This document shows, piece after piece, positions 3,419-37,423 of a stretch of 64,000 nt of DNA (positions are counted from its first letter, which is position 1; the number at the start of each line of letters is the position of its first letter). The stretch is from Clostridia bacterium (GTDB taxonomy: Bacteria; Bacillota; Clostridia; Oscillospirales; QAKW01): NCBI GenBank assembly GCA_017464525.1, contig JAFTZM010000037.1, positions 1-64,000 of the forward strand, written 5' to 3'. The position numbers and the translations under genes were made by a program. Under the pieces are notes generated by a model that saw nothing but the letters and a program-made list of their open reading frames with translations, did no database searches and was not told the origin of the DNA.

Positions 3419-3448
3419 TCATTTCGCTTCCTTTAATTTGATGAAATC

Positions 3449-3477
3449 ATTTTATCACAGCAGCATCGAATATGCAA
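3449..3477 (-). promoter_or_regulatory. Sigma-A promoter for the 2810-3418 gene
   Basis: On the minus strand TTGCAT (3472-3477), a 17-base spacer and TAAAAT (3449-3454), about 30 bases before the start codon. Confidence 0.7.
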
Positions 3478-3495
3478 GTGTTGTTACAGAATGTT

Positions 3496-3527
3496 AAAAA
3501 AATAAGCCTGCAAAATGCAGGCTTATT
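3496..3527 (-). terminator. Terminator of the rpsB-tsf-greA-lysS operon
   Basis: Perfect 12-bp inverted repeat AATAAGCCTGCA/TGCAGGCTTATT (3501-3527), followed on the minus strand by a run of T, just after the lysS stop. Confidence 0.9.
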
Positions 3528-3531
3528 CTGA

Positions 3532-5469
3532 TCAATATAGCTTAGCGCCGGCGGGAATGTGATCATCTACCATCAAAAGATGGAGCTTTTCTTCCCCTTC
3601 CTCGCTGTGGATAGCAGAAAGAAGCATTCCGTTGGACTCCACGCCCATCATGGCACGGGGCGGCAGATTGGTAATGGCGATCAAAGTCTTACCCACCAGC
3701 TCCTCAGGCTCATAGTAAGCATGGATCCCGCTGAGGATGATACGGTCGGTGCCGGTACCGTCGTCCAGGGTAAACTGCAGCAGCTTCTTGGACTTCTTCA
3801 CCGCTTCGCATGCCTTGACCTTCACCGCACGGAAATCAGATTTGGAGAAGGTCTCAAAATCCACATACTCCTCAAAGAGAGGCTCGATCTCTACATTGGA
3901 GAAATCAATGACCTCCGGCTTTACAGCTGCCTCAACCGGGGCAGCCACAGGAGTTCCGTCCTTCTTAGGAGCATCCATGGGCTTCATAGTCGGGAACAGA
4001 ATAACATCCCGGATGGTATCAGCGCCGGTAAAGAGCATCACCGCACGATCGATACCGATCCCCATACCGCCGGTGGGAGGCATCCCGTATTCCATGGCGG
4101 TGAGGAAATCCTCATCCAGCATCTCTGCCTCATCATCACCGCGTTCACGCTGCTCTACCTGCTTTTCAAAACGCTCCCGCTGATCAATAGGATCGTTCAG
4201 CTCGGAGTAGGCATTGCCCATTTCGCTATGGCAGATAAAGAACTCAAACCGCTCGGTCAGGCGAGGATCCTCAGGAGAACGCTTGGTCAGCGGCGAGACC
4301 TCCACGGGATACATAGTAATAAAGGTAGGCTGGATCAAATGCTCCTCCACCTTTTGATCAAAGCAGGCATAGAGGGCATTACCCCAGGTTTTTTCAGCGG
4401 CCTCTGCCAACTCAACGCCAACAGCGGCAGCAGCAGCCACAGCCTCAGCATCATCGGTGATCGCGCCGAAATCAATGCCCACATATTTCTTAACGGCATC
4501 CACCATAGTCAGGCGGGGCCAGCCGGGGGTGAGATCAATCTTTTCGCCCATCCACTCCACCTCATAGGTGCCCAGAATTTCCCGGGCAGCACCGGTGAAG
4601 ATCCCCTCGGCGATATCCATCATATCATGAAAATCGGCATAGGACTGATACAGTTCAACAGAGGTGAACTCAGGGTTATGCTTGGGATCCATACCCTCGT
4701 TGCGGAAGATACGTCCAATTTCATACACCCGTTCCATACCGCCTACGATCAGCCGCTTTAAAGGCAGCTCAGTGGCGATACGCATATACATATCAATATC
4801 AAGGGTATTGTGATGGGTAACAAAGGGACGTGCGGAGGCACCGCCAGCGATGGTATTCAGCACCGGAGTCTCCACCTCAATATACCCCATATCATCCAGA
4901 TATTTACGGACATACTGGATGAACTTGGAGCGAATGACGAAGTTCCGCTTGACCTCAGGGTTCATCATCAGATCCACATACCGCTGGCGGTAGCGGAGAT
5001 CCTGATCCTTCAGGCCGTGAAACTTTTCAGGCAGGGGACGCAGAGATTTGGAAAGAAGGGTGATCTCCTTCGCCCGGATGGAGATCTCTCCCATTTTGGT
5101 GCGGAATACCGTACCCTTAACGCCAACAATATCGCCGATATCCAGCTTCTTAAAGGCAGCCAGAGCTTCCTGGCCCACCTCATCGATCTTCACAAATAGC
5201 TGGATCCGGCCTTCACCATCCTGGAGATCGGCGAAAACCACCTTACCCATGCCGCGCTTGCTCATCAGGCGGCCGGCAACGGAGACAGTCTTCTCCTCGA
5301 AATGCTCGAAATCTGCCTTGATCTCCTCGCTATGGTGGGTCACATCATATTTGGTGATGGTAAAGGGATCGTTGCCGGCAGTCTGGAGCTCATTGAGTTT
5401 ATCCCGACGTACCTGCAGCAGTTCATTTAAAGACAGTTCTTCATTTACGGGATTATTTACATTTTCCAT
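3532..5469 (-). CDS. lysS: Lysyl-tRNA synthetase (class II) with C-terminal tRNA-binding domain
   Basis: Charges tRNA-Lys with lysine in the cytoplasm. The 645 residues hold an OB-fold anticodon-binding domain (about 60-140), the class II core with motif 2 around GRIFRNEGMDPKHNPE (252-267) and motif 3 GGMGIGIDRAVMLF (467-480), an Ala/Pro-rich linker (about 498-522), and an extra EMAP/Arc1p-like OB domain (about 532-645, YVDFETFSKSDFRAVKV). Most bacterial LysS proteins end near residue 500, so the last 110 or so residues are an appended module related to the C-terminus of MetG. It is the last gene of the operon, three bases after greA, with no promoter of its own visible. Confidence 0.97.
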   Translation of the reverse strand: MENVNNPVNEELSLNELLQVRRDKLNELQTAGNDPFTITKYDVTHHSEEIKADFEHFEEKTVSVAGRLMSKRGMGKVVFADLQDGEGRIQLFVKIDEVGQEALAAFKKLDIGDIVGVKGTVFRTKMGEISIRAKEITLLSKSLRPLPEKFHGLKDQDLRYRQRYVDLMMNPEVKRNFVIRSKFIQYVRKYLDDMGYIEVETPVLNTIAGGASARPFVTHHNTLDIDMYMRIATELPLKRLIVGGMERVYEIGRIFRNEGMDPKHNPEFTSVELYQSYADFHDMMDIAEGIFTGAAREILGTYEVEWMGEKIDLTPGWPRLTMVDAVKKYVGIDFGAITDDAEAVAAAAAVGVELAEAAEKTWGNALYACFDQKVEEHLIQPTFITMYPVEVSPLTKRSPEDPRLTERFEFFICHSEMGNAYSELNDPIDQRERFEKQVEQRERGDDEAEMLDEDFLTAMEYGMPPTGGMGIGIDRAVMLFTGADTIRDVILFPTMKPMDAPKKDGTPVAAPVEAAVKPEVIDFSNVEIEPLFEEYVDFETFSKSDFRAVKVKACEAVKKSKKLLQFTLDDGTGTDRIILSGIHAYYEPEELVGKTLIAITNLPPRAMMGVESNGMLLSAIHSEEGEEKLHLLMVDDHIPAGAKLY

Positions 5470-5472
5470 GGT

Positions 5473-5958
5473 TTACTTCTCTACTTTCAGAATCTTATAC
5501 TGCAGCATACCGATGGGAGCCTCCACCTCGATCACATCGCCGGCTTTGCGGCCGAGCACAGCTTTACCGAGAGGGCTGTCATCAGAGATCTTGCCATTCA
5601 TAGGATCAGCCTCAATGGAGCTTACGATATCGTAGACCAGTTCTTCATCCATTTCCACATCCAGCACGGTGATCTTATTGCCCAGCCAGATGGTATCCTC
5701 ATCCTCAGAAACAACCGCATCGTCCTCAACAATAACAGCGTTCTTCAAAGTAGCCTCCAAGGTGGCGATCCGGGACTCTACAATGGCCTGCTCATTTTTG
5801 GCTTCATCATACTCACTGTTCTCGGAAAGGTCGCCGTAGGAGCGGGCAACCTTGATCTTTTCTGCGATCTCCTCACGTTTGGTTGATTTCAGCTCGGCCA
5901 GCTCAGCCTCCAGCTTTGCCTTACCTTCCAGAGTTAAAGAAACAACTTTTTGTGCCAT
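5473..5958 (-). CDS. greA: Transcription elongation factor GreA
   Basis: Rescues backtracked RNA polymerase by stimulating transcript cleavage through the secondary channel. The 161 residues show an N-terminal antiparallel coiled coil (about 1-75, with KSTKREEIAEKIKVARSYGDLSENSEYDEAK, where the acidic tip residues lie) and the C-terminal FKBP-like domain (ISDDSPLGKAVLGRKAGDVIEVEAP). Length and motifs are typical. It sits between tsf and lysS; AGGAGAG precedes the ATG. GreA-LysS adjacency is common in Firmicutes, and here the pair is joined to the rpsB-tsf transcript. Confidence 0.97.
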   Translation of the reverse strand: MAQKVVSLTLEGKAKLEAELAELKSTKREEIAEKIKVARSYGDLSENSEYDEAKNEQAIVESRIATLEATLKNAVIVEDDAVVSEDEDTIWLGNKITVLDVEMDEELVYDIVSSIEADPMNGKISDDSPLGKAVLGRKAGDVIEVEAPIGMLQYKILKVEK

Positions 5959-5982
5959 AATTCTACTCTCCTGTAATTCTGC

Positions 5983-6013
5983 AAAGCGACCCCGGAGGAT
6001 CCGAGGTCGCTTT
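5983..6013 (-). terminator. Intercistronic hairpin between tsf and greA
   Basis: Fourteen-base arms AAAGCGACCCCGGA and TCCGAGGTCGCTTT (two imperfect pairs) around a short loop. On the minus strand only TTT follows, so it may attenuate or stabilise the transcript rather than fully terminate. Confidence 0.45.
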
Positions 6014-6030
6014 GGTTCATCAAATAATAA

Positions 6031-6945
6031 TTACTTGCTCATGCTGGCAACTTCGCTGGCGAAGTCGTCAACTCTCTTCTCAAGGCCCTCGCCCTTCACA
6101 TAGGATACCATGGCCTTAATGGTGATATCCATGCCGGCCTCCTTACTTACCTGCTTCAGGTAAGCGCCAACAGTGATCTTATCGTCCTTTACATAAGCCT
6201 GCTCCAGCAAGCAGTTCTCGGTGTAGTACTTACCGATCTTACCGCCGATCATCTTCTCCAGAATGTTCTCGGGCTTATTGGCATTCTTGGGATCATTCTT
6301 GATCTGAGCCAGCAGAATGCTCTTCTCGTTCTCGATTACCTCAGCAGGAACTTCCTCACGGCAGAGATAAGCAGGATGCATAGCAACGATCTGCATACAT
6401 ACGTTGCGGGCAGCTTCCTGGAACTTCTCGTTAGCAGCATCAGCCACATCGCAAAGAACCATGGCAGCCTCGGTGCCGCCGCCGTGAACGTAACTTACGC
6501 AGGTGCCTTCCAGGCGGGTGAAGCGGCGGATGTTCATGTTCTCGCCGATCTTCAGGATCTTCTCACGCAGAATGTCCTCCACAGTGAATTCGGTGTCTTC
6601 AAACTTGCAAGTCTTCAGAGCGTCTACATCAGCGGGGTTGTAAACAGCAGCTGCCTTAGCAGCACCCTTGACCAGAGCCTGGAACTCAGCATTCTTGGCA
6701 ACAAAGTCGGTCTCGGAGTTCACTTCAATAATAACGCCCACGCCATCAGCGATGTAGGTATCAACCATACCCTCGGAAGCGATACGGCTGGCCTTCTTAG
6801 CCTGAGCAGCAAGCCCCTTTTCACGCAGGATCTCAATGGCCTTATCAACATTGCCATCAGCCTCGGTAAGAGCCTTTTTGCAATCCATCATGCCGCAGCC
6901 GGTGGTCTCACGCAGAGCGGCAACATCTTTAGCAATAAAATTCAT
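6031..6945 (-). CDS. tsf: Translation elongation factor Ts
   Basis: Guanine-nucleotide exchange factor that reloads EF-Tu with GTP. The 304 residues begin with the UBA-like module (VAALRETTGCGMMDCKKAL) and carry the signature SETDFVAKN (about 77-85) that contacts EF-Tu, followed by the two core subdomains. The length is normal for a Firmicutes EF-Ts. It lies 17 bases after rpsB, the classical pairing, with a modest ribosome site AGTAGG ahead of the ATG. Confidence 0.97.
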   Translation of the reverse strand: MNFIAKDVAALRETTGCGMMDCKKALTEADGNVDKAIEILREKGLAAQAKKASRIASEGMVDTYIADGVGVIIEVNSETDFVAKNAEFQALVKGAAKAAAVYNPADVDALKTCKFEDTEFTVEDILREKILKIGENMNIRRFTRLEGTCVSYVHGGGTEAAMVLCDVADAANEKFQEAARNVCMQIVAMHPAYLCREEVPAEVIENEKSILLAQIKNDPKNANKPENILEKMIGGKIGKYYTENCLLEQAYVKDDKITVGAYLKQVSKEAGMDITIKAMVSYVKGEGLEKRVDDFASEVASMSK

Positions 6946-16952: not shown

Positions 16953-17083
16953 GAAAAATCCCGCCGAAGCGGGATTTATTCGAATTTTTTCTGCTATCCG
17001 TCAAAATGACCGCTCGACGTATCACATACGACTTCGGGATCATTTCAACGAAATCTGCGCTCTTTTTCGGCAGTCTTGTCTGG
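16953..17083 (+). repeat. Palindromic short repeat, copy 2
   Basis: Second copy of the repeat at 13000-13126. It contains the hairpin ATCCCGCCGAAGCGGGAT and the near-palindrome CGACGTATCACATACGACTTCG. It lies just after a terminator and before the 3' end of the minus-strand PHP gene, so it occupies the gap between two convergent transcription units. Confidence 0.7.
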
Positions 17084-17090
17084 AAAAAAT

Positions 17091-18494
17091 TTATTCTCTT
17101 CGTTCGTTGCCGCCGTAGATATAAAGGTTACTGCCCTTGGTGATGGGGCCGACGTTACGCTGCACCTCCAGGCAATGATCCAGAAAAGCCTTGCGGGCTT
17201 CGGAAACGACCGGCGCAGGCACCAAGCCATAGAACCGCTTATAGAAGTTCTCCACCGTGGGCTGCATAGCCGCCAGCAGATCGCCGACCTCCTCGCCCTC
17301 GGCATAGCGGCGCATCAGGATCCCCTCACCAAGGCAGAGGCGCCAGGTTTCATTGAAATAATTCTCCCAGATGAACTTTGCAAACAGCACCAGCCGCAGG
17401 GGAGCGCCGTAAAAATGGATATCGGAATCGCTATCGGCAGGGATCTCCGCCGCCAGGCTGTAGCCGCCGCGGATGGCATCCAGGATCGCCTCGGTGGTAT
17501 TTTCCTTTGCAAAGACCACCGTAAAGCGGCGGGCAAAGGATTTGCGCTTCGCATAATCATGGTCATGGGAATCGCTACTGCCCACCACCGGCAGCCGATT
17601 GCCCCGGAGGGCGTATTCCTGCCAGATGGCAAGCTGAGGGTTGACCGGCGCACCGCCTACCAGTTCAAAGGCATCAAAGATCTTTTCCTCGAACATCAGA
17701 TCGCCCAGTTCCTCGGAAACGTTATAGCGGTTAGGGCACCAGAAGGGATGAGCATAAATGGCAAGCCCGCCGGCCTCATGGATCTTTTGGCAGGCCCAAT
17801 GGGCCATGGCCACCCGCTCACGGTACTGCTCCGGCACATGGGACAGCCCCTTGGCGATCTCCGCCACCTCGGCGTTATAGGTCTCACGGTTGCGGATGTA
17901 CCGATCGCAAACACTTTCCTTGCCGCCGGCATGAACGATATGTACCAAAGAACCGGGGGTATGCACCTCTTCACCGGTCATGAGATGGAGCCCCAGGGGG
18001 ATATCCTTGTAAAGCTCCGCCGCCAGCTGAGAGGGGTACATCCGGTTATGGTCGGTAATAGAAACAAAATCAAAGCCCTCTTCCCGATAATCGGCGGGGG
18101 TCATGGCAATGCCATCCTGACCGTCGGAGTAGAAGGTATGGCTATGAAGATCACCCTTCAGGGGGCGCAGGCCGTAAAGATCTTCCTTCACCGCATAAAG
18201 GGAGATCTTCACCTCACTGCCGCCCTTTTCAGCGAAACGGATGGAATACTCCTGCTCCCGGTCAAACAGATAGGTAAACTTCAGGCATCCATCCTGCACG
18301 GTGCAGGGATGATCCAGCGCCACATGAGCGTGGTAATCCAGCTGATCCTCCCGCAGACCGACTACTACCAGCTCATACTCCCGGTCATCCCGGAACCGGC
18401 GGCTGATATCCCGGGGGAATACGGTCACTTCTGTTTCCTTGCCTACGCATACAACAGAAGGGTAACATTGATACTTCAGGTGAGCATTTCTCAT
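17091..18494 (-). CDS. PHP-domain metal-dependent phosphoesterase
   Basis: Protein of 467 residues. An N-terminal beta-rich region (about 1-115) precedes a PHP domain opening GDLHSHTFYSDGQDG and continuing with SITDHNRM, AHPFW and SSDSHDHDY, which supply the His/Asp metal ligands. Such enzymes are usually tri-metal phosphatases or phosphodiesterases. The ATG at 18494 has AAGGAGAAG upstream and begins 25 bases after the CobW-DUF1980 gene; the longer frame is rejected because it overlaps that gene. It is last in the pcrA operon. A metal-dependent enzyme behind two metallochaperone GTPases may be a client, which is inference. Confidence 0.87.
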   Translation of the reverse strand: MRNAHLKYQCYPSVVCVGKETEVTVFPRDISRRFRDDREYELVVVGLREDQLDYHAHVALDHPCTVQDGCLKFTYLFDREQEYSIRFAEKGGSEVKISLYAVKEDLYGLRPLKGDLHSHTFYSDGQDGIAMTPADYREEGFDFVSITDHNRMYPSQLAAELYKDIPLGLHLMTGEEVHTPGSLVHIVHAGGKESVCDRYIRNRETYNAEVAEIAKGLSHVPEQYRERVAMAHWACQKIHEAGGLAIYAHPFWCPNRYNVSEELGDLMFEEKIFDAFELVGGAPVNPQLAIWQEYALRGNRLPVVGSSDSHDHDYAKRKSFARRFTVVFAKENTTEAILDAIRGGYSLAAEIPADSDSDIHFYGAPLRLVLFAKFIWENYFNETWRLCLGEGILMRRYAEGEEVGDLLAAMQPTVENFYKRFYGLVPAPVVSEARKAFLDHCLEVQRNVGPITKGSNLYIYGGNERRE

Positions 18495-18519
18495 GTTTCT
18501 TCTCCTTCTATAGTTTATA

Positions 18520-19467
18520 TTAATAAAAACTTGCAACCTCTTCCTCGGGAGGAAGAGCATTTTCCACATCGATCACCGTTAGGATGGGACCCTGCCGGCC
18601 ATAGGCTTCATGGGAGCCGATATGAATCTTCGCAGTCACGGTGGCCCATTGACCGTTTTTCAGGGAAAAGGCATCGGGATAAAGGCAAACCACCCCGGCA
18701 AACTGGATATCATCCACGCAGCAGGTCATCATCTGGCGGCCGAAGACAAAGAAGCTGCCATCGCTCCGCTCATCCAGAATGATCCGCCCTTTCAGCTGCA
18801 CCGTTTTCCCTTCATAATTCTGCAGTTCCTCGGTAAGATCCCGGTACCAGATGGCATAATCCCGATCCTCGATGGCCACGAGGGGGGCATTCAGATCAAA
18901 GGGAAGGGGATCCTCGATGGTATCGGTGGTCACCTGACCGTTGATATCTTCATAAACGATATCAGCCCGGCGGGAAAGCCCCCGCACCAGCTTATGATAA
19001 GGCATGATATCTGCACTGGGCTGCAGCCGATTGAAGATGACCATTTCGGCCGTCTGCAGCTTATCGGCAACCAGATTCCGCATATTGGCATTATAGGTCA
19101 TGATGGTGGTGCTATCCATAAAGCAGAATTCCTGCACCACGATCCAGCCCTCGGGCAGGGCATCAAAGAGGTCGCCGCTGTTCCACATCCCGTTATACTC
19201 CACAAACACCCGCTGGGCACGGCTGCTTTTGACCATCCGCTCCAAAAGCTTCGGCTTAAGCTCCTCCGGCTCCTCTACCGTCTGGATGGCTACAGGATGG
19301 GGCATTTTGGAGGTATCGTATTCCTCCTCCCCTTCCTCGCAGATCAGCAGAAGGGTGGGGGTTCCGTCGTTATAACGGGGATCCTCTAAGGTTTCCCGGA
19401 TAAAACGGGTCTTGCCCGCATCCAGAAAACCGGTAAAAAGATAAACCGGAATTTGAGTCATACTCAT
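18520..19467 (-). CDS. CobW-type GTPase fused to a DUF1980-like domain
   Basis: Protein of 315 residues joining two modules usually found in separate proteins. The N-terminal G3E/CobW-like GTPase domain has the P-loop TGFLDAGKTR and a VIFNRLQ segment in place of NKxD; it lacks the CxCC metal motif of its neighbour. The C-terminus (about 215-300) resembles DUF1980 (YcgQ/TIGR03943): GKTVQLKGRI, FVFGRQMMTCCVDDIQFAGVVC. DUF1980 proteins are often linked to zinc transport or zinc-starvation responses. The start overlaps the end of the CobW gene by four bases (ATGA), so the two are coupled. It is probably a partner in metal delivery; no membrane segment is present. Confidence 0.85.
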   Translation of the reverse strand: MSMTQIPVYLFTGFLDAGKTRFIRETLEDPRYNDGTPTLLLICEEGEEEYDTSKMPHPVAIQTVEEPEELKPKLLERMVKSSRAQRVFVEYNGMWNSGDLFDALPEGWIVVQEFCFMDSTTIMTYNANMRNLVADKLQTAEMVIFNRLQPSADIMPYHKLVRGLSRRADIVYEDINGQVTTDTIEDPLPFDLNAPLVAIEDRDYAIWYRDLTEELQNYEGKTVQLKGRIILDERSDGSFFVFGRQMMTCCVDDIQFAGVVCLYPDAFSLKNGQWATVTAKIHIGSHEAYGRQGPILTVIDVENALPPEEEVASFY

Positions 19468-20570
19468 GCCTCCAATCCAAAGAGCCCGGCCAACTCATGC
19501 TCCTCCAGATCGGAGCCGATCACGCAGATACGGCCGATCACCTGCGCAGAGCCGAGGCGGATATCCTGCTCGCCGGGTACATAATCAAAGAAGATCCAGC
19601 CGGAATCTCCGGCCACCATGCCCTTGGCCCGGAGGACGGTGCCATAGCTGCCGGTATCCAGTTCGTTCAGGATCTCGGCAAGCTGCGCCTCGGTATAGCT
19701 GCGGGTAGTCTCCTTGCCCCAGCTGGCGAATACCTCATCGGCATGATGATGGTGATGATCATGATCGTGGCAGCCGCAGGTACATTCTTCCCCATGCTCA
19801 TGATGGTGCTCATGATCGTGATCGTGGTGATGGTGATGGTCATGTTCGTGACCGTGATGATGTTCATGCTCATGTTCATGGTCATGATCATGACACCCGC
19901 AGGTACACTCCTCCTCATGCTCATGGTGATGGTGCTCATGATGATGCTCCAGCTCATGAAGGATCTCTCCAAGAGAATCCTTCTGCTCCATGGCATCCAG
20001 CATCTGCTTTCCGCTCAGCTGATCCCAGGGGGTAGCGATCACGGTGGCGTTGGGGTTTTTCTCCTGGATCAGTTTCACAGCAGCAGCCAGCTTCTCCTCG
20101 CTCAAATTCTGGGCACGGCTAAGGATGATGCAGGCAGCGTGCTCCAGCTGATTATCGTAGAATTCACCGAAATTTTTGGCGTAGATCTTGCATTTTCCTG
20201 CATCGACCACGGTGGTAAAACTATTTAACTCCACCCCTTCCAATTCCAGATTGGTAACAGCGGCGATCACATCGCTGAGCTTGCCAACACCGCTGGGCTC
20301 GATGAGCACACGGTCGGGATGGTAGGTCTCAATGACCTGCTCCAGCGCCTTACCGAAATCCCCCACCAGGCTGCAGCAGATACAGCCGGAGTTCATTTCG
20401 GTGATCTCAATGCCGGCCTCCTGCAGGAACCCGCCGTCGATGCCGATCTCGCCGAATTCATTTTCGATGAGAACCAGTTTTTCGCCGGTATAGGCCTCCT
20501 CCATCAGTTTTTTGATGAGGGTGGTCTTGCCGGCCCCTAAAAATCCGCTGAAAATATCGATTTTAGTCAT
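19464..20570 (-). CDS. CobW/COG0523 metallochaperone GTPase with His/Cys-rich insert
   Basis: G3E-family GTPase of 368 residues that should bind and deliver a transition metal, most likely zinc. It has the P-loop GFLGAGKTT (9-17), the family metal motif GCICC (Cys63, Cys65, Cys66) and an SRAQ segment at the NKxD position. Residues 207-277 form an extreme His-rich insert containing two copies of CTCGCHDHDH (Cys222/224/226 and Cys263/265/267), 41 residues apart. The C-terminal CobW_C domain follows (about 286-368). It lies 22 bases after the DUF2500 gene and overlaps the next GTPase. The base composition is skewed to CAT/GAT codons across the insert. Confidence 0.93.
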   Translation of the reverse strand: MTKIDIFSGFLGAGKTTLIKKLMEEAYTGEKLVLIENEFGEIGIDGGFLQEAGIEITEMNSGCICCSLVGDFGKALEQVIETYHPDRVLIEPSGVGKLSDVIAAVTNLELEGVELNSFTTVVDAGKCKIYAKNFGEFYDNQLEHAACIILSRAQNLSEEKLAAAVKLIQEKNPNATVIATPWDQLSGKQMLDAMEQKDSLGEILHELEHHHEHHHHEHEEECTCGCHDHDHEHEHEHHHGHEHDHHHHHDHDHEHHHEHGEECTCGCHDHDHHHHHADEVFASWGKETTRSYTEAQLAEILNELDTGSYGTVLRAKGMVAGDSGWIFFDYVPGEQDIRLGSAQVIGRICVIGSDLEEHELAGLFGLEA

Positions 20571-20592
20571 TTCTTTATCCCTTCTTTATAAA

Positions 20593-20973
20593 TTATGTAC
20601 GTTGAAAGCCAAGGTATCTGGTACCCTGGAAGGTCAGCATTCCCTGATCCCCCTCCACCAGTAGACCAAAGTCCTGGCCGGACACGATCAGCTCCATCCG
20701 ATCGCCGCTTTCCACCTGAAAGGTCACATAGTAGCTGGTGGAGTGCATATGGTGATGATCGTGGTGGTGATGATGGGAAACTGAGGTACGCTTTGCCACA
20801 ATAGCAGCCGGTACGGTCAGCTTGGGGGAATTATTATTTTTGCTCCATTGGCTGATGATCTTCACAAAAACCACCACAAATACTGCGATCACCAGGATCG
20901 TAATAATAGCCGAAAAGATCCACATCAATCCAAATCCGGCAAAAAATCCGGAAAAATCAAATCCCAATCCCAT
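20593..20973 (-). CDS. DUF2500-like membrane protein with His-rich loop
   Basis: Protein of 126 residues: a glycine-rich N-terminus, one or two membrane segments (about 12-40), then a soluble domain KLTVPAAIVAKRTSV, a His cluster (residues 67-76, HHHHHDHHHM) and a beta domain STSYYVTFQVESGDRMEL. The domain pattern around the cluster fits DUF2500. The His stretch sits in a short loop between the first two beta segments and may bind the same metal as the following CobW protein. It is placed seven bases after pcrA and before the CobW gene, so the His-rich genes form a unit. Confidence 0.82.
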   Translation of the reverse strand: MGLGFDFSGFFAGFGLMWIFSAIITILVIAVFVVVFVKIISQWSKNNNSPKLTVPAAIVAKRTSVSHHHHHDHHHMHSTSYYVTFQVESGDRMELIVSGQDFGLLVEGDQGMLTFQGTRYLGFQRT

Positions 20974-20979
20974 CGTTAT

Positions 20980-23235
20980 TTACTCCTTTGTCAGTTTGGC
21001 AAAATTAGCCATGATCTTCTTGGTGCCCACCGTATCAAACTGCACCTCCAGCAAAAAGTCGCTGCCCATGGGGGTCTTGGAAAGGAGCGTGCCAGCCCCG
21101 AAGGTCTTATGCTTCACCCGGTCGCCGCAATTGAAATTAAAGGCAGCGGCAGGGGCGGCGGGAGCCTTCCGGATAGCAGGCTGAGCAGCGGGAGCAGCAA
21201 AACCTGTACGCACCGGAGATGCGGCGGTACGGCTACCGTAGGCGGTATTTTTAGTAGGCGGGGCGCTGCCGAAGGAGGGGGTAAAGGCAGTTTTGGGGGA
21301 AAGATCCTGAACCACCAGCACCGGCAGCTCCTTCAAGAAGGTGCTGGGCATACAAAACTGCGTTCGCCCATACAGCATCCTCTGGCGGGCATGAAGCAGA
21401 TACAGACACTTTCTGGCCCGGGTGACCCCCACATACATCAGCCGGCGCTCCTCCTCGATCTCTCCGTCGTCCAAGCAGCGCTGGCTGGGGAAAAGCCCTT
21501 CCTCCATGCCGATCATAAAGACATAATTGAATTCCAGGCCCTTGGCGCTGTGAAGGGTCATCAGCACCACCCGGTCGTCCTCGTCCCCCATCTGATCCAG
21601 ATCGGTCATCAGGGAAACTTCTTCTAAAAATCCGGAAAGCTTTCCCTCCGGATTATCCTGCTGGTATTGCTTGACTGAAGTGCAAAGCTCCATGATATTG
21701 TTGATACGGTCCTTGGCCTCATCGGTGCCTTCCAATTCCAGCATAGCAATATAGCCGGAATCCCGGGCCACCCGGGCCACCCATTCATCCAGCGGAGTGC
21801 GTTCCAACTGGGCGGTCAGGTGATCCATCAGCCGGGCAAATTCCATCAGAGCGGGAGCGGTACGGCTCAGAGCAGGATACTCCCCTGCCCGGCGCATTAC
21901 CTCCAGCATGGGCAGAAATTCCTGCCGGGCAATGTTCTCGATATTGGCAATGGTGGTGGCGCCGATCTTACGCTTGGGCTCATTGATGATCCGCTTCAAG
22001 CGCAGATCGTCCCGAGGGTTATTCACCACCTGCATATAGGCCAGAATATCCTTGATCTCTTTCCGCTCGTAAAAGCGGAAGCCTCCCACGACCTTATAGG
22101 GAATCCCGCTCTTCACAAAATAACGTTCCACCGAGTTGGCCTGCGCATTGGTGCGGTAAAGCACGGCAAATTCGCTGAATTTTGCCCCCTTTACCACCCG
22201 ATCCTGCACTGTTTCGGTGATAAAGCGGCTCTCCTCAAAATCATCGTTGACCCGCTTTACGTAGACAGGCTCGCCCTTTTCGCCGGCGGTCCAGAGCTCC
22301 TTGCCCTTCCGCTGGGTGTTATGGGCGATCACCGCATTGGCAGCCTCCAGAATATTGGCGGTGGAGCGGTAGTTCTGCTCCAGCCGGATGACCTTGGCAT
22401 TGGGGAAATGCTCCTCGAAAAGCAGGATATTTTCAATGGTAGCTCCCCGGAATTTATAGATACTCTGATCATCGTCGCCCACCACGCAGATATTGCGGAA
22501 TTTAGAAGAGAGCAACGAGACCAGCCGGTACTGCAGCGGGTTGGTATCCTGATACTCATCCACCATGATATAGCGGAACCGGCCGGCATATTTGGCCAGA
22601 ATTTCCGGGTGATTTTCAAAAAGCTCCACAGTCTTCAGGATCATATCGTCGAAATCCAGAGCGTTGGCTTCCCGGAGAGCGGCATCGTAGCGGGCGTAGA
22701 TCTTGGCGATCTGCTCCTCCCGGAGATCCCTGCCGAAATGCTTGCAGTAATCAGCGGGGCCCACGCGCATATCCTTGGCTCGGGAGATAGCCCACTGCAC
22801 CGACCGAGCAGGCAGGGTGGAATCCTCGATCTCCAGCGCCTTCATGGCGGCCTTGATGACCCGCTGGCCATCGTCGGTATCATAAATAGTATAGTTGCTG
22901 TTGAATACCCCGTCTACCCCGATCTCTGCCCGCAGCACCCGGCCGCAGAAGCTATGAAAGGTGGCGGCGGTGACCCCGAAGGCATCGCTGCCCATCATGG
23001 CATCGATCCGGTCACAAAGCTCCTTGGCCGCCTTATTGGTAAAGGTGATAGCCAAAATATGATAGGGAGCGCAGAGCCCCTTGGAAAGCAGATAAGCGAT
23101 GCGGTTGATCAGCACCGTGGTCTTACCGCTGCCGGCGCCGGCCAGGATCAGTAGGGGACCGTCGGTATACTCCACCGCCTCCCGCTGGCGGGGGTTCATT
23201 GCATTTAATTTTTCATCCAAAACGTGTTGAAGCAT
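20980..23235 (-). CDS. pcrA: UvrD/PcrA-type DNA helicase
   Basis: ATP-dependent 3'-5' superfamily 1 DNA helicase of 751 residues, used in repair and replication restart. Motif I AGAGSGKTT (32-40), motif II VDEYQDTNP, motif III-like VVGDDDQSIYKFRGA, EQNYRS, and motif V/VI TLHSAKGLEFNYVF and GVTRARKCLY are all present. The C-terminus carries the usual flexible Ala/Pro linker and Tudor-like domain (GDRVKHKTFGAGTLLS). The ATG at 23235 is chosen because helicase homology begins about ten residues later and AAGAGG precedes it; the longer frame extends into a repeat element. It is first gene of the operon that also carries the His-rich proteins. Confidence 0.96.
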   Translation of the reverse strand: MLQHVLDEKLNAMNPRQREAVEYTDGPLLILAGAGSGKTTVLINRIAYLLSKGLCAPYHILAITFTNKAAKELCDRIDAMMGSDAFGVTAATFHSFCGRVLRAEIGVDGVFNSNYTIYDTDDGQRVIKAAMKALEIEDSTLPARSVQWAISRAKDMRVGPADYCKHFGRDLREEQIAKIYARYDAALREANALDFDDMILKTVELFENHPEILAKYAGRFRYIMVDEYQDTNPLQYRLVSLLSSKFRNICVVGDDDQSIYKFRGATIENILLFEEHFPNAKVIRLEQNYRSTANILEAANAVIAHNTQRKGKELWTAGEKGEPVYVKRVNDDFEESRFITETVQDRVVKGAKFSEFAVLYRTNAQANSVERYFVKSGIPYKVVGGFRFYERKEIKDILAYMQVVNNPRDDLRLKRIINEPKRKIGATTIANIENIARQEFLPMLEVMRRAGEYPALSRTAPALMEFARLMDHLTAQLERTPLDEWVARVARDSGYIAMLELEGTDEAKDRINNIMELCTSVKQYQQDNPEGKLSGFLEEVSLMTDLDQMGDEDDRVVLMTLHSAKGLEFNYVFMIGMEEGLFPSQRCLDDGEIEEERRLMYVGVTRARKCLYLLHARQRMLYGRTQFCMPSTFLKELPVLVVQDLSPKTAFTPSFGSAPPTKNTAYGSRTAASPVRTGFAAPAAQPAIRKAPAAPAAAFNFNCGDRVKHKTFGAGTLLSKTPMGSDFLLEVQFDTVGTKKIMANFAKLTKE

Positions 23236-23246
23236 ATTTTTCCTCT

Positions 23247-23524
23247 TTAGCCAAAGCATTGATACTTGAACCGGATTTTGGAACACGTATTTTCCGCCGA
23301 GGCTTTGTTGAAATACTCGCAAATCCGCCAGGATTTGCTGCGTTTTACGCCGTGCTCACCGAAAAATCTGTTGTTCCAAAATTCTGCGACCTGAAAGGCG
23401 CGGCTTTTTGAATGATTTTTGGTGAAGCAGAGCCAAGAAGGCTGGCGCCTATTGGCGACAATGAGCCAAAAAGCATCGAAAATCCGCCCTTTCAGGCCGA
23501 TTCAAGTTTCAATGCTTTGGCTAA
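23247..23524 (+). repeat. Structured inverted-repeat element, copy B
   Basis: A 278-bp element bounded by TTAGCCAAAGCATTGATACTTGAA and a near-perfect complement ending in GCTTTGGCTAA. Inside, GGATTTTGGAACA pairs with TGTTCCAAAATTC, and the right half has the conserved GAAAGGCGCGG / CCGCCCTTTC arm around a hairpin GCCAA (23432-23436) / TTGGC (23452-23456). It is 11 bases upstream of the pcrA start and occupies most of the gap to the acyltransferase gene. Confidence 0.85.
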
Positions 23525-23553
23525 TTAGTCTTTAACCTAGATATTATACGCCA

Positions 23554-24516
23554 TTATTTTCTTGAAGTCAATTTAAGAAATAAAAATACCGGCAAAGCGC
23601 AAAAGGCAAAAACCGGTAACGCCCGCAGGGGAACCATATAGCAGGCGGTTTCGGCATCCCCAACGATCTCCTGCAGGAACAGGATCACCGCAGGGTGCAG
23701 CAGATAGATCCCCAGGGTGCATTTTGCCAGCCCGGAAAGAAATCTGCTTTGGAAGGGATGCCTGCGGTAAAGCTCCCGTAAAAAGAGATACAGCCCCATG
23801 GCCGCCAAAAGCACGCCGGGTGCAAAAAAACTCACCGCCAGTTCTTTATATTCCGCCGGCACCAAAAAGGCGGTCGCTACGGTAGCAGCAGCGCCGAAAG
23901 CCCCGAAAAGGTATAAAAAACCGGGCTTTTTTATGCCAAATCTGCGGTAAAAATCGCCGAAAAGATAGCAAAAAATAAAGCCGCAGGGGTAACTGACCTT
24001 CATCCGGTCGGCCACCGTTTCCAGCACCGGAAAGGCGCCGGATCGGAGCAGGACAAACAAAACCGATCCCAGCAGGAAGGCGATCCCCAGCCCATAGCAA
24101 TACTCTTTTTTTGAGGCATGGGCAGCAAAGACCCGGAGCGCAGGGGTCAGCAGATACAGCGCCATCACCGCATAAAGATACCAAAGATGGTTGGGCTGAG
24201 TCAGAAGATAGCCCAGAAGATCGGAGATACCGCTGAAGGTATGGGTATGCAGCACCGCCAGCTCGTAAAGAAAATACGCCGCCGACCAGCCCAGCATCAC
24301 CAAAAACAGCCGCCCGGTCTTTTTGATAATTTTAGAAAGGGGCTGATCCTCTGCCAGCATATAATGGCCGCTGATCATCACAAAAAGCGGCACCGCCACC
24401 ACCGCAAGCCCCCGGTACAGCCAGTTAAAGCCGTTCATAGGATAGCAGCAATGGATCACCACCACCAAAAAACAGGCCAGCACCCGGATCAGATCTGTAT
24501 CGGTATCCCGCTTCAT
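23554..24516 (-). CDS. Acyltransferase 3 family membrane protein
   Basis: Integral membrane O-acyltransferase of 320 residues with about ten hydrophobic helices. The N-terminus DTDLIRVLACFLVVVIHCCYP carries the conserved arginine and histidine of the AT3 family, followed by GLAVVAVPLFVMISGHYML. Such proteins acetylate or otherwise acylate cell-surface polymers and antibiotics. It is monocistronic with a clear promoter and GGGGGGA ahead of the start. The acceptor is unknown; proximity to the polysaccharide locus is not close enough to infer one. It follows repeat copy B. Confidence 0.88.
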   Translation of the reverse strand: MKRDTDTDLIRVLACFLVVVIHCCYPMNGFNWLYRGLAVVAVPLFVMISGHYMLAEDQPLSKIIKKTGRLFLVMLGWSAAYFLYELAVLHTHTFSGISDLLGYLLTQPNHLWYLYAVMALYLLTPALRVFAAHASKKEYCYGLGIAFLLGSVLFVLLRSGAFPVLETVADRMKVSYPCGFIFCYLFGDFYRRFGIKKPGFLYLFGAFGAAATVATAFLVPAEYKELAVSFFAPGVLLAAMGLYLFLRELYRRHPFQSRFLSGLAKCTLGIYLLHPAVILFLQEIVGDAETACYMVPLRALPVFAFCALPVFLFLKLTSRK

Positions 24517-37344: not shown

Positions 37345-37423
37345 CAATTGTTTCGTAATTATTAAGAAGTTCTGCTCATTTCTAAGAATCCGGATTACAA
37401 TATAAGCATAGAGGAGGTTCATT

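Follow-up and report, generated by a model that had tools for sequence, protein, structure and literature searches.

YcgR and YcgQ belong to the DUF318/ArsP_1 permease and DUF1980 (TIGR03943) families. Their homologues ScfA and ScfB matter for streptococcal fitness, and offer no function that could be borrowed (PMC5584981). The COG0523 zinc GTPases (ZagA/YciC, ZigA, and YjiA) have a G3E fold, a P-loop, a Walker B glutamate, a CxCC motif, and a histidine stretch that separates the G domain from the C-terminal one, and an intact NKXD is named as a COG0523/G3E feature by Haas et al. (PMC2770081). The nickel insertases HypB and UreG are likewise G3E NTPases, and the histidine stretches of UreG stand in for a separate metallochaperone, UreE (PMC2770081). 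CooC, a metallochaperone NTPase of MinD type that uses ATP and serves nickel, has lost NKXD (PMC9164220). In the literature found, which covers few subscription papers, no paper joins DUF1980 and COG0523, and the gene pair reported here is undescribed.

The window, a 64,000-nt stretch of a Clostridia bacterium genome (positions 1 to 64,000 of contig JAFTZM010000037.1), had been read in an initial annotation as containing a His/Cys-rich metal-handling operon attached to pcrA. The genes and their tight spacing are as that annotation described. All lie on the minus strand, with gaps of 6 nt between pcrA and the DUF2500 gene, 22 nt between the DUF2500 gene and CobW, and 25 nt between the fusion gene and the PHP gene, and CobW overlaps the fusion gene by 4 nt. 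The listed TTG start of pcrA (23322) falls inside a repeat element, and its corrected start is the ATG at 23235; the PHP gene starts at the ATG at 18494, not at the listed ORF start (18569). Because a strong terminator-like hairpin follows the PHP gene and pcrA is preceded by an 11/12 promoter match, a single transcript from pcrA to the PHP gene is plausible. The features of the locus are:

23543..23571, minus strand: promoter-like site, 11/12 match, 5' of pcrA and of the repeat
20980..23235, minus strand: pcrA helicase, from the ATG at 23235 to the stop at 20980
20593..20973, minus strand: DUF2500 protein with a His run
19464..20570, minus strand: His-rich CobW, a COG0523-type G3E NTPase of 368 aa
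20373..20384, minus strand: CICC metal-site motif of CobW, residues 63-66, from motif conservation
20109..20120, minus strand: G4 position of CobW, SRAQ in place of the expected NKXD, from the column tally
19743..19958, minus strand: His/Cys-rich arm of CobW, predicted disordered, from His content and model pLDDT
19878..19907, minus strand: CTCGCHDHDH module 1 of CobW, residues 222-231
19755..19784, minus strand: CTCGCHDHDH module 2 of CobW, residues 263-272
18520..19467, minus strand: fusion of a G3E-like domain with a DUF1980_C OB domain, soluble, 315 aa
18709..18723, minus strand: CCxxD motif of the DUF1980_C domain, residues 249-253, from motif conservation
17091..18494, minus strand: PHP-domain (CehA/McbA-like) metallohydrolase
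16956..16977, minus strand: strong terminator-like hairpin 3' of the PHP gene

The repeat is a MITE-like element of about 280 bp (window positions 23245-23525) with terminal inverted repeats TTAGCCAAAGCATTGA..., which sits between the promoter-like site and pcrA. The genome holds about 14 near full-length copies with 77-96% identity (G000:C7:63550-63827, and also on C22, C17, C27, C14, C6, C21, C29, and others), and another copy lies just 5' of zur-znuACB.

Gene-order comparison supports CobW and the fusion as a co-conserved, tightly coupled gene pair of metal type. The fusion is carried by 11 of 12 genomes of the family and was matched in 90 of 295 genomes of the order. In 88 of the 89 order loci, it is directly preceded by a co-oriented CobW gene, with a median gap of 7 nt; the pair is present in about 30% of the sampled order genomes (88/295). 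CobW also occupies position -1 in 166 of 168 loci and lies upstream of the fusion in 80 of 80 named loci from GTDB species, which come mostly from Oscillospiraceae/Ruminococcus-type gut clostridia and include a few that repeat the first locus set. Overall, the two genes are adjacent, with CobW first, in about 188 of 189 loci. As no other gene recurs in more than about one-tenth of the pair loci, the unit consists of these two genes. The proposed metal operon thus survives in part: the His-rich CobW is co-conserved with the fusion, while the His-rich DUF2500 protein is not, and membership of the PHP gene and of pcrA is not supported. Among 398 genomes sampled across the phylum, just two yielded full-length matches outside the class. 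One pair locus (L199) comes from a Ruminococcus flavefaciens strain. Another (L202) sits on a contig labelled Alistipes senegalensis (MAG), which is likely mislabelled or a contaminant because the other matches are clostridial.

The CobW protein matches Pfam cobW with 125 bits, and its best solved relative by sequence is YjiA (4ixm/1nij). Like the COG0523 zinc GTPases, it has a G3E fold and carries its histidine stretch after the G domain and ahead of the C-terminal domain. Its CobW_C domain scores 19.9 bits against a Pfam cut-off of 22, a value that is exceeded in L120 and L236, two membrane-form relatives described below; the protein also scores below the ZigA and CobW equivalog cut-offs of NCBIfam. 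The COG0523 CxCC motif is present as GCICC in 81-82 of 82 orthologues, with C63 and C65 invariant and C66 kept in 81 of 82 (alignment column tally), and the Walker A (SGFLGAGKT) and the Walker B with its glutamate (IEPSG) are conserved as in COG0523/G3E proteins. Unlike the COG0523 zinc GTPases, CobW has S[RH]Tx at the position of NKXD. The intact motif is absent, and the G4 columns of the 82 orthologues hold S in 78, R in 58 or H in 24, T in 77, and then a variable residue with no conserved Asp. A further difference from these GTPases is the nearly obligatory second G3E-like partner gene.

That partner, the fusion protein, matches Pfam cobW (23.5 bits, cut-off 20.7) and DUF1980_C (75 bits, cut-off 25.9). 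It has an AlphaFold2 model with a pLDDT of 91, in which Foldseek matches domain 1 to HypB (top hit 2hf8) and YjiA and domain 2 to OB folds. The fusion's G domain is a homologue of the G domain of CobW (hhalign probability 97%). Among 88 orthologues of the fusion, the P-loop residues G13, G18, and K19 and the Walker B glutamate E90 are invariant, and the NKXD position reads NRxx in 86. A CxCC motif is absent from the fusion, where the CICC of CobW has no counterpart in the profile alignment. Since both G domains lack the guanine-recognition motif NKXD, the pair perhaps uses ATP or another nucleotide; loss of NKXD is shared with CooC, which is of MinD type, unlike the G3E-like pair with its ordinary P-loop. 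The DUF1980_C domain of the fusion, which is common to the YcgR/YcgQ system, carries the CC of TIGR03943/DUF1980 as an invariant pair (C249 and C250 in 88/88 and D253 in 87/88 orthologues). Unlike YcgR/YcgQ, the window has neither a permease nor the DUF1980 membrane segment: the fusion scores 77.2 against TIGR03943 (cut-off 88.8), no DUF1980_N membrane part was found by Pfam, and no related permease was found in the window genome at E 1e-10. The pair also differs from HypB and UreG, which have no OB domain or CCxxD site, and no hydrogenase or urease context is seen at the pair.

Membrane relatives of the pair consist of ArsP_1 and DUF1980 proteins, again as in YcgR/YcgQ. In two distant relatives in the order (L120 and L121), one protein contains both the G3E-like domain and an ArsP_1 permease, and a membrane DUF1980 protein comes next. 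The permease was found in 2 of 295 order genomes, exactly the two without the soluble fusion. We collected 21 further membrane-type loci in the class, 3 of which have the G domain and the permease as separate genes, giving a membrane set of 23 loci for comparison with 187 soluble loci. In the membrane form, CobW is poor in histidine, the G3E-like domain adjoins the ArsP_1 permease or is joined to it, and the DUF1980 protein is a membrane protein. The soluble form, which the window has, lacks the permease; here the G3E-like domain and the DUF1980_C OB-fold make up a single protein, and CobW carries a large His/Cys arm that is predicted to be disordered. The literature found contains no paper on the fusion of a G3E domain with a permease. 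A single branch with support of 98 separates the two forms in the midpoint-rooted G-domain tree, and the CobW tree agrees (support 86) when the L255 protein is set aside. The soluble form looks like a derivative or a sister of a membrane zinc module linked to Zur, the direction being our inference, as midpoint rooting is no proof of it. Because both forms coexist in some genomes (G457, G534, and G529), the soluble form is not simply a replacement of the membrane form.

Zinc is the likely metal of the pair, judging from the genes around it. A Fur-family/zur gene lies in the flanks of 13 of 23 membrane loci versus 3 of 187 soluble loci (Fisher 3e-12, relatedness ignored), and znuA/znuB in those of 8 of 23 versus 1 of 187 (Fisher 5e-8, relatedness ignored); linkage to zur/znu is thus nearly absent in the soluble form (4/187). 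In L193, a soluble exception, the pair is divergent from znuA with TGAAAATCATTCTCA between them, a 13/14 match to TGAGAATCATTCTCA, the operator that precedes zur-znuA-znuC-znuB in the window genome. Because zur/znu genes stand beside the membrane loci and L193 is divergent from znuA with this operator, both architectures are, by genomic association, tied to zinc. Complete zinc islands with zur, znuABC, CobW, G3E-permease, and DUF1980 adjoining occur in Clostridia (L236, L237, L238, L239, L241, and L266), and Pfam confirms FUR, ZnuA, ABC-3, ArsP_1, and DUF1980_C in L236. The last gene of the zur-znuA-znuC-znuB operon of the window genome (L207, G000:C7:60500-70000, positions 3422-6779) encodes a 143-aa lipoprotein with a GCC motif. 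Its profile weakly resembles that of the DUF1980_C OB domain (hhalign E 8e-4, probability 25%), and it is perhaps an extracytoplasmic counterpart.

The Zur boxes that the initial annotation had suggested seeking upstream did not appear at the locus: its genes have no operator of the TGAGAATCATTCTCA type, and the best match 5' of CobW is 9/14, which is chance level, although other operator shapes are possible. The B. subtilis-type, Fur-type, and own-genome Zur consensus sequences likewise match at chance level upstream in 154 soluble loci; as the same consensus set fails in membrane loci with adjoining zur, the test has little power beyond the genome of the window. Transcription with pcrA from the promoter at 23571-23543 could make the pair constitutive in the genus, as far as gene arrangement can be extrapolated. 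A Zur-like box with one mismatch (TCGTAATTATTAAGA, window positions 37353-37367) lies upstream of a distant XRE-type regulator and is probably due to chance.

The His/Cys arm of the window CobW holds 30 His in 60 residues and is predicted to be disordered (pLDDT below 50). The two CTCGCHDHDH modules noticed in the CobW insert were found at residues 222 and 263, exactly 41 apart, and the 30-nt stretches that encode them are identical except at 4 positions. Across 152 soluble partners, the median arm counts are 37 for His, 6 for Cys, and 27 for acidic residues. The richest 60 residues contain 1-13 His in CobW proteins of membrane loci, versus at least 12, and usually 20-36, over all soluble loci (15-36 in the tree sample of soluble loci, leaving out L255, whose CobW is no orthologue). 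L255 was considered as a counter-example, a His-poor CobW beside a soluble fusion, and was rejected since its CobW is a very distant homologue on a branch of 7-9 changes per column. In that locus, the soluble fusion lies next to this unrelated CobW and a Fur-family gene, and the gene order is reversed. The association between a long arm and the soluble form, as read from these sequences, is strong, yet it rests on few independent events, largely one, because a single branch separates the forms.

The reading we favour, with moderate confidence, is that CobW and the fusion act as a pair in the cytosol to buffer and transfer zinc, and that they descend from the membrane zinc module or are its sister; we infer zinc as the metal, contact between the partners, the directions of transfer and of evolution, and the clients. 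The His/Cys arm of CobW would hold and load zinc as a reservoir, by analogy with the UreG His stretches that replace UreE (PMC2770081), and the CICC in the nucleotide-switched CobW domain would take zinc up in one nucleotide state. Transfer would be driven when CobW, probably together with the G3E-like domain of the fusion, binds nucleotide, and the zinc may pass either to the invariant CCxxD in the OB domain of the fusion or to client enzymes. In the membrane form, zinc at the membrane would be handled by the permease module; the soluble form has no permease, and its His arm is expanded. A bolder version is tentative: a heterodimer of two unlike, NKXD-less G3E domains, perhaps using ATP or another nucleotide, may relay zinc from the arm through CICC to the CC of the OB-fold, in which case gut clostridia would have converted a membrane zinc module into a soluble machine for metal insertion.

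The same pair could instead store or chaperone nickel, cobalt, or copper, like the His stretches of HypB. The HypB His-rich arms bind nickel, as cited in PMC2770081, other COG0523 members serve cobalt (CobW) and iron (Nha3) (PMC9164220), and the membrane-form permease scores weakly against Cu/Zn and SaoE efflux families. However, the membrane form adjoins zur and znuABC, one soluble pair adjoins znuA, and no urease, hydrogenase, or cobalamin cluster is seen among the recurring neighbours, and we consider a metal other than zinc unlikely. A sponge against zinc or copper excess, in which the arm would be a metallothionein-like buffer and delivery would play no part, is quite improbable. Arms reaching about 76 His, the window without a Zur operator, and soluble loci nearly without zur/znu linkage would suit such a sponge, but the NTPase core and CICC are strictly conserved beyond what a sponge needs, and no efflux gene recurs near the pair. 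It is very improbable that the arm is a drifting low-complexity expansion without function. Its length, composition, and module copy number (0 to 10 CxCxxH per arm over the 152 soluble partners) do vary greatly between orthologues, but all full-length soluble partners examined, apart from the non-orthologous L255, retain a His-rich arm (12 or more His per 60 aa), and a CxC lies no more than 30 residues from the arm end in 116 of 152 soluble orthologues.

The remaining genes of the locus show no lasting link to the pair. The pcrA-CobW-fusion order is kept only in the window's genus among the 12 family genomes compared, so the link to the helicase is not a conserved one. The DUF2500 protein (Pfam DUF2500, 128 bits) and the PHP protein (NCBIfam CehA/McbA metallohydrolase, 86.1 against a cut-off of 80; Pfam PHP, 22.2 bits, under the cut-off of 26.4) are linked to the pair only in this species, homologues of either being detected next to it in no other locus examined, and both occur elsewhere without it. 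DUF2500 is present in 27 of 147 order genomes and was found in no other sampled genome of the genus or family; only G025 gives a weak match, about 3 kb from the pair. Its His run was rejected as part of the system because it recurs in six or so DUF2500 relatives sited elsewhere, and is, judging from these relatives, a feature of part of that family. Relatives of the PHP protein are present in 32 of 147 order genomes; those in the same family sit on contigs other than that of the pair, and several of the genomes with such relatives yielded no pair. DUF2500 and PHP stand next to the pair either by chance or because the operon grew locally. The idea of the initial annotation that all five genes form a metal cassette with the PHP enzyme as its client fits the tight spacing, the common terminator, and the metal dependence of PHP enzymes, but it was rejected by the gene-order comparison and deserves next to no credence, because the PHP gene is unlinked to the pair elsewhere and has homologues at sites without it and in genomes where none was found.

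The zinc buffering and transfer pair would join two poorly understood families, the COG0523 NTPases and the DUF1980/DUF318 membrane proteins, in one traceable system, and this linkage predicts a shared zinc role for them. The pair offers a natural experiment on His-rich arms, which are long where the permease is absent, and a test case of G3E metallochaperones without the guanine-specificity motif.
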